From an uncultured Candidatus Peregrinibacteria bacterium (GTDB lineage Bacteria > Patescibacteriota > Gracilibacteria > Peribacterales > Peribacteraceae), in assembly GCA_903854335.1 (NCBI GenBank), contig CAINVY010000001.1, forward strand, positions 1-64,000: a DNA stretch of 64,000 bases. Direction: 5' to 3'. Below are positions 55,074-60,417 of the stretch, piece by piece. Each line of letters opens with the position of its first letter. Position 1 is the stretch's first letter. A program made the translations under genes and the position numbers. A model generated the notes under the pieces. That model was not told where the DNA came from, did not search any database, and worked only from the letters and a program-made list of their open reading frames with translations.

Positions 55074-55622
55074 ATGCACGATGAGGAATTCCGGTGCGCT
55101 CTTCCCTTCGATGCCTCCAGGCATCCTATAGAGATCGTCCAAGGAAGGCACGGGCCGTACAGCCATTTTGCCGAACGGCAACCTCCCTTCAAGGATTTGA
55201 GCTATGCGATTGATTTTCGACTTCCTGTTGGCGCCTCCATCCTTGCAGTGTGTCGCGGAAGAGTCCGAACTATCTTGGACGTGAGCACCTCTTGCTACAG
55301 GGGAATGGATCGGAGGGAGGCGAGTGAAGCATGGCCGAATTTGGTCGTCGTTGATTGCGGAGGGGAAATTTTGGATGCCTATATCCACCTTCTCAGGGGA
55401 TCCGTTCGCGTTCAGGTGGGGCAATGTATTGAGGAGGGGCAGCTCCTGGGGCAGGTTGGAGACAGCGGATGGGTGGGGCCGATCAGCACGCATCTGCATT
55501 TTCAACGCTACTCCTACGGGACTCAGAGTCGTCGATTGCAGATGCAAACACTCCCGATTTCCTTTCGTGATTACGACGGACCTCTGGAGCACCAGGATCT
55601 GCTAGTCTGTGCTCATGTCTAA
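55074..55622 (+). CDS. M23 (LytM-like) family protein without signal peptide
   Basis: This 182-residue beta-rich protein matches the M23 fold. LSYAIDFRLPVGASILAV carries the zinc-binding Asp. AYIHLLRGSVRVQVGQCIEE is followed by GQLLGQVGDSGWVGPISTHLHFQ with the H-x-H motif. The His that usually precedes the Asp by three residues is Tyr in SYAID, so one ligand may be missing or come from HGPYSHF upstream. It has no signal peptide, unusual for a murein endopeptidase, so it could be inactive or act inside the cell. Its 3' end overlaps the methyltransferase gene by 8 nt. Confidence 0.72.
   Translation: MHDEEFRCALPFDASRHPIEIVQGRHGPYSHFAERQPPFKDLSYAIDFRLPVGASILAVCRGRVRTILDVSTSCYRGMDRREASEAWPNLVVVDCGGEILDAYIHLLRGSVRVQVGQCIEEGQLLGQVGDSGWVGPISTHLHFQRYSYGTQSRRLQMQTLPISFRDYDGPLEHQDLLVCAHV
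55603..55608 (+). promoter_or_regulatory. -10 box of the NSUN-type gene
   Basis: TGCTAGTCT gives an extended -10 (TGC plus TAGTCT), ending 6 nt before the ATG at 55615. It lies inside the end of the M23-like gene. Confidence 0.4.
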
Positions 55623-57045
55623 GCCTTTTCCGTCTTCCTTCGCCGCATTCGATCGTTACGGTGTCGTTACTGATTTGGAAGCGCTCAAGAACGCGAGTCT
55701 GCTGCCGCTTCGCAAGAGCAAACGGGTGAATCTGCTCAAGGGATCAACTGAGGATTTTCTGCTCTGGGCGAAGGAAAGGGAATGGACTGCAGAGCAAATT
55801 CCATGGTGCAGCGAGGGATACTACATTGATCGGGAGGACCGTGAGACGGCGCTTGGGAAAGATTTGCTGCACCTTCTAGGCTTTACCTACATGCAGGAGG
55901 CGGCCAGCATGATGCCTGTTGCACTCCTTGATCCTCATCCCGGTGAAACCATTCTCGACATGAGTGCGGCGCCCGGGAGCAAGACGACGCAGATCGCTTC
56001 CATGATGCAGGGGAGGGGAGTCATCATTGCCAATGACGTGCAGGAGAAGCGCCTCTGGACACTCAAGAATTCTCTCCACCGTAGCGGCGTCACCAACGCG
56101 ATCGTGACGAAGAAAGTCGGACAGTGGTTCGCGCGAAACATGACGGAGCGGTTCGATCGCGTGCTCTGCGACGCCCCCTGTACCGCGCAGGGAACGGTGC
56201 GCAAGGATTCGGATGCGCTCACATACTGCTCGAGTGAAAACATCGGCAAAATGGCGAAGTTGCAGCGCGAGCTTCTCGAAGCGGCCATCGATGCGGCGAA
56301 GGTGGGCGGCATCATCGTGTATTCCACATGCACCCTAACGTGGGAGGAGAACGAAGAAGTCATCGCTTCTATATTGAATAAATATAGTGATCAGCTGGAA
56401 CCCCTTGAAACAGGGCTGAATTCGATACTGGGTGCTGCAATGAACGACTCGATATCCGTTCAGAAGTATCTTGGATTTTCGCGACAATTTCCCGCATTTC
56501 GTCTTTGGCCGCAGACGTATGACACGGAGGGATTCTTCGCCGCGGTACTTCGAAAGGTGAGGCCGACCCGCGCCAGGGAGCATCGAGAGGCGGTGAGATT
56601 TATCGAAGATCGTCTTCCTCGCTCGCGCCAGGCATCTATGGAAAAAGAGATCGCGGCTCTGTACGGCTCGTCGTTCCTCTTGCCCGATGATCGTCTGTTC
56701 TCACTCAATGATCGCTTGGTCCTCTCGACGGAGGAAGTGGCGGACTTTTCACTCCCTGTCAAAAACTATGCTCTGGGGATCCCTTTCGGGAAACGACTGG
56801 ATGAATCGCGGGTGCGCCTCGACCACGACCTCGCCACGCTTCGCGGCCATCTCGCCACCTCGCAGTTTCTGGATATCTCCGCAGACCAACTTCAAGCTCT
56901 CCTGGATGGTAAAGACACGACGTGCGAAGCGCACCTGCGAGGAGACGTACTGCTTCGATATAAAGAAAGAACCGCGGGGTTCGGCCTCGCGAAGGACGGA
57001 CATCTGAAGAATAGATTGCCTCGCTGGTTGGTCATGAAATCTTAG
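55615..57045 (+). CDS. RNA cytosine-C5 methyltransferase (NSUN/RsmF-like)
   Basis: This SAM-dependent enzyme of the NOL1/NOP2/Sun family methylates cytosine in rRNA or tRNA. The N-terminal region has KRVNLLKGSTEDFLLWAK. Motif I is LDMSAAPGSKTTQIASMMQ. Catalytic cysteines lie in LCDAPCTAQGTV (motif IV) and YSTCTLTWEENEEV (motif VI). A C-terminal PUA-like region of about 150 residues (from about residue 325) resembles the RsmF tail. The start MSKPFPSSF at 55615 is preferred over a GTG 6 nt upstream because of the -10 box. The 476 residues fit RsmF-type enzymes. The target site is not known. Confidence 0.88.
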   Translation: MSKPFPSSFAAFDRYGVVTDLEALKNASLLPLRKSKRVNLLKGSTEDFLLWAKEREWTAEQIPWCSEGYYIDREDRETALGKDLLHLLGFTYMQEAASMMPVALLDPHPGETILDMSAAPGSKTTQIASMMQGRGVIIANDVQEKRLWTLKNSLHRSGVTNAIVTKKVGQWFARNMTERFDRVLCDAPCTAQGTVRKDSDALTYCSSENIGKMAKLQRELLEAAIDAAKVGGIIVYSTCTLTWEENEEVIASILNKYSDQLEPLETGLNSILGAAMNDSISVQKYLGFSRQFPAFRLWPQTYDTEGFFAAVLRKVRPTRAREHREAVRFIEDRLPRSRQASMEKEIAALYGSSFLLPDDRLFSLNDRLVLSTEEVADFSLPVKNYALGIPFGKRLDESRVRLDHDLATLRGHLATSQFLDISADQLQALLDGKDTTCEAHLRGDVLLRYKERTAGFGLAKDGHLKNRLPRWLVMKS

Positions 57046-57064
57046 CAGTGATAACGACGGATTA

Positions 57065-57093
57065 TTGACAATAATCAAATAGTATGCTATTAA
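57065..57093 (+). promoter_or_regulatory. Promoter of the first CheD-like paralogue
   Basis: A perfect TTGACA (57065-57070), a 17-nt spacer and extended TGC plus TATTAA (57088-57093) end 7 nt before the ATG at 57101. It matches the promoter of the second paralogue. Confidence 0.55.
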
Positions 57094-57100
57094 TATATTA

Positions 57101-57796
57101 ATGCCTCCATCTAGGACAGCACAGGATATTGGGATTCGGTTGGTCGAAACCGATATTTCCCCCAACGCGAAGGAGATATTGGGAGAGGGAGATCTCCAGA
57201 ACATTCGTTTTTCTGGTACCTATTCTCTCTCTGACTGCAACGCTCTTGATAAATACACCCTCGACTGTCAGCGTTGTATTGCCACGATACTGACCGGCAC
57301 AGATAAAAGCGGGCAACAAGTATCGGAGCTCGCGCACATCTCTCCATACATTTTTAACGGACCGCGAGATTCCTTTCGGGAAGCGTATACAACTATCCTT
57401 CGGAATTTTCGAAAGAACACGGTCGAGGGTACGAGAACTGTTGGCTTGGCGGGTGGTACGTTTATCCGTGAGCCGATGGGAAAAAATGCTGCCGATGAAT
57501 ACCGGAAGATGGTACATCTTATTGGGTCAATGACCGGTGATCTGCTTGAAACAGTGACGAGAGTACTGACGGGGCCAAAGTTGAAAAGAGGAGGTCTCAC
57601 TCACCTGTATTGTTCTACACAACAGAGATTTGCTTGTGTTTTGCAAACTCCACAGCAGACAACTGTGGCCCATGCGGGCTTCGATTATTGGGATTTGCCT
57701 GAGGAGGAGGAGCGCTGGAAACAGGATCTCCTAGTGAATATTGCAGAAGCTTCCATTGGCTCCGAAGCAACTCCATGCATAATACATCGCACCTGA
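57101..57796 (+). CDS. CheD-like (putative amidase) protein, paralogue 1
   Basis: This 231-residue soluble protein has a neighbouring paralogue at 57913-58650. It begins RTAQDIGIRLVE and contains KYTLDCQRCIATILTGTD. His79 follows in SELAHISP. A helix (FREAYTTILRNFRKN) leads to TRTVGLAGGTF and GKNAADEYRKMVHLIGSM. The order Thr53-x5-Cys59, then His about 20 residues on, HI-x-P, then R-T ... AGG and G-x-N matches the layout I recall for the glutamine deamidase CheD (Thr-Cys-His, KIAGGANMF). In CheD the Cys-to-His spacing is 17. No chemotaxis gene is visible. CheD kinship is a motif-based inference, and substrate and function are unknown. Confidence 0.5.
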   Translation: MPPSRTAQDIGIRLVETDISPNAKEILGEGDLQNIRFSGTYSLSDCNALDKYTLDCQRCIATILTGTDKSGQQVSELAHISPYIFNGPRDSFREAYTTILRNFRKNTVEGTRTVGLAGGTFIREPMGKNAADEYRKMVHLIGSMTGDLLETVTRVLTGPKLKRGGLTHLYCSTQQRFACVLQTPQQTTVAHAGFDYWDLPEEEERWKQDLLVNIAEASIGSEATPCIIHRT

Positions 57797-57877
57797 AGTG
57801 AGATGAACCACTGACAGCTTCGTGGATTTTTCGCGGTGGCTAGCGATGAAATCGTAAACGCAAGTTGAGACGATAGC

Positions 57878-57906
57878 TTGACCACAAAGATAAAGAATGT
57901 TATTAA
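57878..57906 (+). promoter_or_regulatory. Promoter of the second CheD-like paralogue
   Basis: TTGACC (57878-57883), a 17-nt spacer and extended TGT plus TATTAA (57901-57906) end 6 nt before the ATG at 57913. Confidence 0.55.
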
Positions 57907-57912
57907 ATATGT

Positions 57913-58650
57913 ATGTCTTCCAAAAAGACAGCAGAGGATATTCAGATTCGGTTGGTCGAAGCCGAGAAGCCCTGCAAGGCGAAGCAGGTATTTGGAGAAG
58001 AGGATTGGCATTTCATTCGCCGACCCAGAAGATCCAATAGCGCTTCGCATTCATCTTGTGACAATCTCAACAAAATTACTCTGAACTGTCAGTGTTGCGT
58101 TGCGCAGATACTGACCGGCACAGATAAATGCGGGCAACATGTATCTCAACTTTGGCATATCGATCCTCGCGTTGTCTACGGCGCATCTTCGTTTTTCAAG
58201 AGAGTTTATCGATCAAATCTTCGTGATTTTAGGTCGAAAACGGTTAGTGGGACGAGAACGGCCGGATTGGCGGGCGGTCTCTATCTTCTCAAATCGCTTT
58301 GTTGGAGAAAAGCTGACAAGGAATACCGAGATATGGTGAATCTCGTCGGATCGCTGACGGGCGAAGTGCTCAATATTGTGACGAGAGTGTTGACGGGTCC
58401 AAAAGTCAGTGGAGATGGATTTACGCATGTGTACTTCGAGACAAAACAAAGAATGGCTCATGTATTGCAATCCCTTCAGCCAACGGCTGTGGCGCATCAG
58501 GGGTTTTCCTATTTGGATTTACCCGAAGAGGAGGAGAGGTGGAACCAGGATTACAATGTAAATTCGAAGCGATGGATGGATACCTTGTGGAAACAATACG
58601 TGGATGGCGAAATAGACTACGACCATATGATCAAAAAAATCCGCGAGTAG
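57913..58650 (+). CDS. CheD-like (putative amidase) protein, paralogue 2
   Basis: This 245-residue paralogue of the preceding gene shares KTAEDIQIRLVE, then KITLNCQCCVAQILTGTDK. WHIDP with His82 follows, then GTRTAGLAGGLY, NLVGSLTGEVLNIVTRVLTGP and DLPEEEERW. The proposed active residues Thr56, Cys62 and His82 keep exactly the spacing seen in paralogue 1. The C-terminus is longer and charged (QYVDGEIDYDHMIKKIRE). Its stop abuts an ATG at 58651, with the probable dnaG start at 58669. The call carries the same uncertainty as paralogue 1. Confidence 0.5.
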   Translation: MSSKKTAEDIQIRLVEAEKPCKAKQVFGEEDWHFIRRPRRSNSASHSSCDNLNKITLNCQCCVAQILTGTDKCGQHVSQLWHIDPRVVYGASSFFKRVYRSNLRDFRSKTVSGTRTAGLAGGLYLLKSLCWRKADKEYRDMVNLVGSLTGEVLNIVTRVLTGPKVSGDGFTHVYFETKQRMAHVLQSLQPTAVAHQGFSYLDLPEEEERWNQDYNVNSKRWMDTLWKQYVDGEIDYDHMIKKIRE

Positions 58651-58653
58651 ATG

Positions 58654-58659
58654 TATACT
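58654..58659 (+). promoter_or_regulatory. -10 box of dnaG
   Basis: TATACT ends 9 nt before the ATG at 58669 and lies inside the alternative frame starting at 58651. Confidence 0.45.
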
Positions 58660-58668
58660 GCCCTCCTC

Positions 58669-60417
58669 ATGGATGCGGTCACCGACATCAAAGCGCGCCT
58701 CCCGATCGAAGATCTCGTCGGGCAGTACTGTGCGCTTCAGAAGAAGGGGCGCAATTTCGTCGCGCTCTGTCCTTTTCATAAGGACTCGCATCCGAGCTTT
58801 CTCGTGTCGCCGGACAAGGGCATCGCGTACTGCTTCGCGTGCCAGAGCGGCGGTGACATCTTCAGCTTCTATCAGAAGATTGAGGGTGTGGATTTCCGAC
58901 AGGCGCTGAAGGATCTCGGGGAGAAAACGGGCGTGAAAATCGAAGACACGCCGCACGCGCCGGCGCTCAAGAAGGATGAGAAGGAGCGACTACGCGAGTG
59001 CTTGGAAGTGGCGTGCCTCTTCTTCCATCAGCGGCTCGCATCCGCGACGAGTATTCTCAAGTATCTTTCGGATCGCGCCGTCACCCCTGAGCAGATCGAG
59101 CAATTCCAGATCGGATTCGCGCCCGATTCCTTTACGGAAACTTACGAGCATCTTCTGAAGCAGGGATTCTCGCGCAAGGAAATCCTGGCGGCGGGGATGG
59201 GCGTGCAGCGAGAGCTCAAAGAGGAGCGCATTTACGACAGGTTCCGCAATCGTTTGATGTTTCCGATTCACGATCTTCACGGTGCGATTGTCGGATTCGG
59301 CGGACGCACGATGGGGGATGACGATGCGAAGTACATCAATTCCTCCGATGGGGTGCTCTATCACAAATCTTCTCTGCTCTTCGGGATGCACTTCGCCAAG
59401 GAGGCCATTCGCGAGAAGAAGACGGCGTTGCTCGTCGAGGGATACTTCGATGTCCTCGCGTGTCACAGTGTGGGGGCGCACCACGCGGTCGCGACGAGCG
59501 GCACGGCACTGACCGTGGATCACGTGAAGATCTTGAAGCGGTGCACGGATACGGTGTGTCTTTGTTTGGACAGCGATCGTGCTGGGAAAGAGGCTGCGGA
59601 ACGCGCATTTCTCCTCTTGTCTGCGGGCGGGCTTAACGTCCGATCGATTCAATTGCCGAAGAAAGATGCGAGCGAACTTCTCTCCGAGCAGCCGCAGCTG
59701 CTGCGATCTCTCCTCGATGATGGCGGTATGCCGTACCTCGATTGCGTTCTGGAGGAGATGCGCACGACAGATCTCAGTGATTCGCAAGTGAAGAGGCAGG
59801 CACTACAGCGCCTCCTCACTCTCCTCTCGGTGTTGCCGTTCGCCGTAGAGCGCGACGCGTGTTTGAGCAAGGCAGCGGGCGTACTCTCCACGACAGAGAC
59901 GGCACTGAAGGAAGATCTTTCTCGCGTGTCCCTTGAGCCGCGCATCAGCCCCGTTGCTCCCAAGCCGGAGGCATTGTCCTCGGCATTCGCATTTTCGAAA
60001 TTGGAAATTGCTCTCTGCCTCTTCCTCCTCTATCCCAAATTGCATTCCCTCCTCGCCGAGCTCATCGCGCCCGTCGACGGGTTCGCGCTGCGACTCTTTA
60101 CGGCGATTAAAGAGCTTCCCGAAGGCTCTTCCATGGATATTCTCGATCGACTCACGCTCAGTGCCGAGGATCGGGAGCGCACATCTATCCTCATGCTCTT
60201 TGGTGAGGAGCACGGATTCACCGAGTGGTCGGATTCGCTGGCGATTCGCGAGATCCGCCGCAACTGCCATCGCGCCAACCAGGATGCGCTCAATGCGAAG
60301 ATGCAGGAGATCACGACAAAGCTGCGCATCGCTCAAACGGCAAACGACATCGCGGGCGAGGTGATGCTGAAAAATCAGTTCGAACAAGTCCGTCGCCTCA
60401 TGAAAATCGCACATTGA
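58669..60417 (+). CDS. dnaG: DNA primase
   Basis: It makes RNA primers for replication. The N-terminal CHC2 zinc finger has CPFHKDSHPSFLVSPDK and AYCFACQSGGDIFSFY. The catalytic core has DRFRNRLMFPIHDLHGAIVG and FGGRTMG. The Toprim motifs are LVEGYFDVLA and LCLDSDRAGKEAA. The C-terminal helicase-binding region is present but divergent. The 582 residues are normal. The start at 58669 (MDAVTDIKARLP) is preferred because a TATACT lies just before it. dnaG followed by rpoD is a common arrangement. Confidence 0.95.
   Translation: MDAVTDIKARLPIEDLVGQYCALQKKGRNFVALCPFHKDSHPSFLVSPDKGIAYCFACQSGGDIFSFYQKIEGVDFRQALKDLGEKTGVKIEDTPHAPALKKDEKERLRECLEVACLFFHQRLASATSILKYLSDRAVTPEQIEQFQIGFAPDSFTETYEHLLKQGFSRKEILAAGMGVQRELKEERIYDRFRNRLMFPIHDLHGAIVGFGGRTMGDDDAKYINSSDGVLYHKSSLLFGMHFAKEAIREKKTALLVEGYFDVLACHSVGAHHAVATSGTALTVDHVKILKRCTDTVCLCLDSDRAGKEAAERAFLLLSAGGLNVRSIQLPKKDASELLSEQPQLLRSLLDDGGMPYLDCVLEEMRTTDLSDSQVKRQALQRLLTLLSVLPFAVERDACLSKAAGVLSTTETALKEDLSRVSLEPRISPVAPKPEALSSAFAFSKLEIALCLFLLYPKLHSLLAELIAPVDGFALRLFTAIKELPEGSSMDILDRLTLSAEDRERTSILMLFGEEHGFTEWSDSLAIREIRRNCHRANQDALNAKMQEITTKLRIAQTANDIAGEVMLKNQFEQVRRLMKIAH

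Follow-up and report, generated by a model that had tools for sequence, protein, structure and literature searches.

A tandem gene pair between rsmF and dnaG

In the window, by which we mean the entire 64,000-nucleotide stretch of DNA analyzed here from an uncultured Candidatus Peregrinibacteria bacterium, two adjacent genes lie between rsmF and dnaG (Table 1). Both open reading frames are intact, and the encoded proteins are 53% identical over 217 residues. These are the only copies of their family in the genome; they are sisters in the family tree (support 100/99), separated by a dN of 0.37 and a dS of 1.12. The preliminary description of this locus had reported Thr-x5-Cys, then a His 20 residues on in HI-x-P, and R-T ... 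AGG, and both reading frames indeed carry all three elements, the last of them within GTRT-x-GLAGG. Protein 1 has T53-x5-C59, H79 within HISP, and GTRTVGLAGG at residues 110-119; protein 2 has T56-x5-C62, H82 within HIDP, and GTRTAGLAGG. From these motifs we propose T53/C59/H79 and T56/C62/H82 as the candidate catalytic triads of proteins 1 and 2, respectively.

Table 1. Positions of the gene pair, its promoter-like elements and the inserted stretch within the window
Feature	Positions	Strand	Description
Inserted stretch	57046..58671		Between rsmF (55609-57045) and dnaG (about 58672-60417)
Promoter-like element, gene 1	57065..57093	+	TTGACA, 17 bases, TATTAA; ends about 7 bases before ATG; read by eye
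Gene 1	57101..57796	+	231 aa; putative cysteine amidohydrolase, CheD-like predicted fold
Promoter-like element, gene 2	57878..57906	+	TTGACC, 17 bases, TATTAA; ends about 6 bases before ATG; read by eye
Gene 2	57913..58650	+	245 aa; paralog of gene 1

A consensus scan missed both promoter-like elements because it requires the second hexamer to end in T. Since the elements end only 6-7 bases before the start codons, the transcripts are predicted to be near-leaderless.

The GC content of the insert is about 46-49%, compared with 55-57% in the flanking genes. We compared the rsmF-dnaG junction in seven relatives (G001, G002, G003, G129, G048, G039, and G007; loci L083-L087, L089, and L090). The gene order rsmF-dnaG-rpoD is kept in the relatives examined, with the available sequence of G002 covering the first two genes. 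In G002, the closest relative (dnaG 83% identical), the rsmF-dnaG gap is 83 bp; it measures 58-144 bp in G039, G007, and G048 and widens to 1.5-1.8 kb, filled with unrelated genes, in G001, G003, and G129. The genes found at the junction in these last three comprise a CPBP-like membrane protein, further membrane proteins, and a cation antiporter-like gene. The gene pair is thus accessory cargo carried by a variable slot; it was probably acquired first and duplicated afterward. Given such a slot, the neighbors are uninformative as to the target of the encoded proteins. The suggestion, drawn earlier from those neighbors, that the target might lie in translation or replication is therefore not borne out, as the slot is empty in G002 and holds unrelated genes in other relatives, and no neighbor recurs beside homologs elsewhere. 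Across 20 neighborhoods from other carriers of the family, no recurrent gene family pointed to a partner; shared neighbors mostly reflected synteny within one genus (G530, G672, and G784), and the rest were common housekeeping types.

Upstream of the pair, a small open reading frame at 55074-55622, in the leuS-rsmF interval, resembles an M23-type metallopeptidase domain (SYAIDF ... HLHF). It may represent a second insertion because leuS and rsmF nearly abut in G002.

A previously unnamed family of small genomes

The family to which the pair belongs was previously unnamed, and no Pfam, NCBIfam, PHROG, or PADLOC model recognizes it: scans with these libraries gave no match above chance for either protein. 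Searches of PDB sequences with family proteins returned chance matches only, and no relative was retrieved when genome and viral collections were scanned with seed patterns or when phage and plasmid records were searched by tblastn. Three other genomes of the same genus contain no member, and a survey of 288 genomes from the class turned up one distant relative (G217). A profile built from three sequences, the window pair and the G217 protein, retrieved further members across the phylum. With the extended profile, 14 of 397 genomes in the order of G530 proved to be carriers, and a further carrier (G564) lies outside that order. Carriers total 17, with genome sizes of 0.5-1.3 Mb, which would fit Patescibacteria, the phylum named in the preliminary description; the final alignment comprises 28 sequences from 16 of them, G968 being excluded for broken reading frames. 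Distribution is patchy, mostly at one copy per genome, with four or five copies in each of three genomes of a single genus. Weak matches at three loci (L006, L007, and L008) were rejected as members, the reading frames there being unrelated genes.

Conservation of the Cys and His among homologs had been set beforehand as a test of the proposed active site, and both residues are invariant in all 28 sequences. At Cys-6, 27 of the 28 have Ser or Thr; the exception is L064, with Ser at -7. Counting from Cys to His, the two window proteins have a spacing of 20 and the other aligned members one of 21-22. Invariant positions across the 28 rows are S84, K91, C99, G106, S116, H120, and G163 in the numbering of the distant member L018, corresponding to S44, K51, C59, G66, S75, H79, and G119 of protein 1. 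Of the two Gly residues in the AGG motif, the second never varies and the first hardly does. The family has a single invariant His; another, at position 17 of L018, lies in an N-terminal extension, occurs in 24 of 28 sequences, and is absent from the window pair.

Orthologs within one genus have dN/dS values of 0.07-0.29, two pairs lying at 0.07-0.09; together with the dN and dS of the window paralogs, these values indicate purifying selection. The family is real and selected, not an artefact.

Architecture varies among members. A second tandem pair, also sisters in the tree (support 86/88), occurs in G672 (L022:1450-3194), so tandem duplication seems to have occurred more than once. Three members carry an N-terminal hydrophobic domain with the pattern DLDHIPS...HIP (L025:1144-2238, L029:1132-2265, and L030:1237-2229). 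This domain has no Pfam match and is probably a two-helix membrane domain, so that these members appear to be membrane-anchored. Two divergent members bear long C-terminal extensions without a meaningful Pfam match (L062:1276-2748, 490 aa; L064:1255-2340, 361 aa). No obvious signal peptides were found in family proteins, which, the three apparently membrane-anchored homologs aside, are probably cytosolic.

Predicted fold and superfamily assignment

An AlphaFold model of protein 1, computed from a 21-row alignment, reached a pLDDT of 83.3 and a pTM of 0.81. When the model was compared with 350,542 PDB chains using Foldseek, the top match was CheD of Thermotoga maritima (2f9z_C; E 2.9e-4, probability 1.00, target TM 0.62, identity 15%), an alpha/beta sandwich, as the preliminary description had anticipated from motif layout. 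Human NTAN1 followed (E 0.025, probability 0.91; also E 0.033), then a YfiH-family protein (E 0.037); lower ranks held one more NTAN1 chain and otherwise unrelated, far weaker matches. The model of L018 was the more confident of the two (pLDDT 87.8, pTM 0.87) and matched the PDB weakly. A YfiH protein came first (E 0.086), and four more YfiH structures appeared among the best 50 matches (the five being 1rw0, 1xaf, 1z9t, 7f3v, and 1u05); CheD was absent from those 50. In the models, the Cys immediately precedes a run of two consecutive strands that we read as a hairpin, and the His, in the second strand, falls close to where that run ends, a predicted placement consistent with that expected for a Cys-His pair. 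In a separate search of a viral structure library, two giant-virus proteins (A0A7D3V927 and A0A5B8HVT9) matched the predicted fold with E values of 3.7e-4 and 8.3e-4.

The model of protein 1 shows an alpha-beta-beta sandwich, and the sequences supply the Cys followed by His, with Ser or Thr as the third residue. The proteins are thus very probably Cys-His-Ser/Thr hydrolases of the CNF1/YfiH-like cysteine-hydrolase superfamily, which also holds CheD and NTAN1. Because L018 matched the PDB weakly, the assignment rests mainly on protein 1 and the conserved triad.

This superfamily includes YfiH-type enzymes that act on small molecules, and YfiH has a second active-site His. An amidase resembling YfiH/PgeF (DUF152), with the same fold and a nonprotein substrate as in peptidoglycan-precursor editing, would account for the recurrence of YfiH among the matches of the more confident model and for the YfiH-family protein ranked fourth for protein 1. 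These matches are nevertheless weak (E 0.037 and above), no family protein matches the YfiH family in Pfam or otherwise by sequence, and the Ser/Thr at Cys-6 agrees instead with CheD and NTAN1. The YfiH active site holds a zinc ion (PMC7022378), and the second His of this site is not conserved in the family. The single invariant His therefore disfavors such a small-molecule role, which we regard as unlikely. The CNF1/BLF1-type proteins are Cys-His deamidases of the same superfamily (PMC8960835, PMC7022378); none matched by sequence or appeared among the listed fold matches, and their LSGC motif is absent from the family.

Relationship to CheD and NTAN1

The catalytic triad of CheD is Thr21/Cys27/His44 (PMC7022378). 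Its Ser/Thr-x5-Cys spacing of six is the same in the family, whereas its Cys-to-His spacing of 17 is 3-5 residues shorter than the 20-22 found here; the additional residues are consistent with a longer hairpin in the predicted structures. Compared with CheD proteins of the phylum, the landmarks are collinear, running S/T-x5-C, H, GG, and a second G(G/P). The GG follows the Cys by about 60-64 residues in the family and 66 in CheD, and the second G(G/P) lies about 40-44 further on; in protein 1, GG occupies 118-119 and GPK 158-160. The family differs in an extra C-terminal helix and lacks the motifs GSC, HxML, and GxxN, each invariant in the same-phylum CheDs compared. Hence, of the CheD-like layout first described, the G/N-containing helix holds less well than claimed, given that G-x-x-N is not conserved in the family, while the remaining motif arrangement stands.

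Could these proteins nonetheless be very divergent true CheDs that deamidate chemoreceptors? CheD is the best fold match of protein 1, but the CheD model PF03975 matched nothing in the window genome and none of 21 members, and the signatures just named are missing. Aligning the family with nine CheD sequences in hhalign gave a probability of 0.1%, which is not significant, and profile alignment against CheD gave a marginal Z of 1.4-2.9 over column shuffles, varying with gap costs. No chemoreceptor signaling domain was detected in the window genome; the absence of chemotaxis genes noted for the window therefore extends genome-wide for the CheD and chemoreceptor domains tested. Among carriers, 0 of 17 had a chemoreceptor domain over the cut-off, although two gave weak matches below it, compared with 5 of 5 control genomes encoding true CheD. 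It follows that the family works without chemoreceptors. The true-CheD reading is already contradicted, and we consider it exceedingly improbable.

Genuine CheD does occur in the phylum, in 10 of 145 genomes. One of these, G003, belongs to the genus of the window genome and encodes CheD about 4 kb from a chemoreceptor domain (G003:C1:181142-185507), so the group includes both members with chemosensory genes and members lacking them. A literature search, mostly outside subscription journals, retrieved no paper on CheD in Patescibacteria and none of relevance to stand-alone CheD-like proteins.

NTAN1, the N-terminal asparagine amidohydrolase, presents a second comparison. Its triad is Ser69/Cys75/His92, and the C75A and H92A variants lose activity (PMC7022378). 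The family shares its superfamily and Ser-to-Cys spacing, and NTAN1 (6a0f/6a0h) is the second-best structural match of protein 1. It differs in that NTAN1, a eukaryotic enzyme, carries an added C-terminal recognition region and separates Cys from His by 17 residues, such that the family retains Ser/Thr-x5-Cys and departs from Ser-x5-Cys-x16-His. An N-terminal asparagine or glutamine amidase feeding an N-degron pathway would fit the structural match (E 0.025, probability 0.91) and the Ser-x5-Cys pattern. However, the NTAN1 substrate-binding residues adjoining the Cys, Asp71, Thr73, and Thr74 (PMC7022378), have no conserved equivalents in the family. Moreover, ClpS, the bacterial N-degron adaptor, was found in 0 of 17 carriers, which disfavors an N-degron role and leaves this reading quite improbable.

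Proposed function and significance

Taken together, we lean modestly toward the view that the pair is a tandem duplicate from an accessory gene family, not previously modeled, of stand-alone Cys-His-Ser/Thr amidohydrolases whose likeliest activity is protein deamidation. If the superfamily assignment is granted, protein deamidation is a reasonably probable activity. By analogy with characterized relatives, the substrate would be a protein, probably one outside chemotaxis, with glutamine the most likely target residue and asparagine a possible one. In a mechanism modeled on CheD and NTAN1, Thr53 would orient His79, which would deprotonate Cys59. The resulting thiolate would attack the side-chain carboxamide (of Gln most likely, possibly Asn), ammonia would leave through a thioester intermediate, and water would release the acid, yielding Glu or Asp.

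A further alternative is an effector that is delivered into a host or prey cell and has its target protein there. Bacteria with such small genomes frequently live on other cells. An accessory gene would fit the uneven occurrence of the family, its repeated tandem duplication, and its copy number of up to five in a genome. Against it, no signal peptide or delivery domain is evident, no secretion gene recurs in the 20 neighborhoods, and two orthologous pairs are under strong purifying selection (dN/dS 0.07-0.09); we judge the effector role improbable. A broader deamidase reading, which we advance tentatively and hold at somewhat below even confidence, is that bacteria with tiny genomes possess a protein-deamidase family of their own, so far undescribed, which would have abandoned chemotaxis and would regulate, or attack, another protein.

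Whereas the fold and its catalytic logic were familiar beforehand, the family and its freedom from chemotaxis are new. To our knowledge, little is known of bacterial protein glutamine deamidation beyond chemotaxis and toxins. In a bacterial group whose accessory genes mostly lack an assigned function, a compact family that has a recognizable active site and no entry in the annotation libraries we searched offers a directly testable case. The predicted CheD fold occurs, in the carriers tested, where no receptors exist to edit. Should the family indeed be a deamidase lineage separated from chemotaxis, its presence in up to five copies and the apparent membrane anchoring of some members would suggest a private system of post-translational (Gln to Glu) signaling or a host-directed one.
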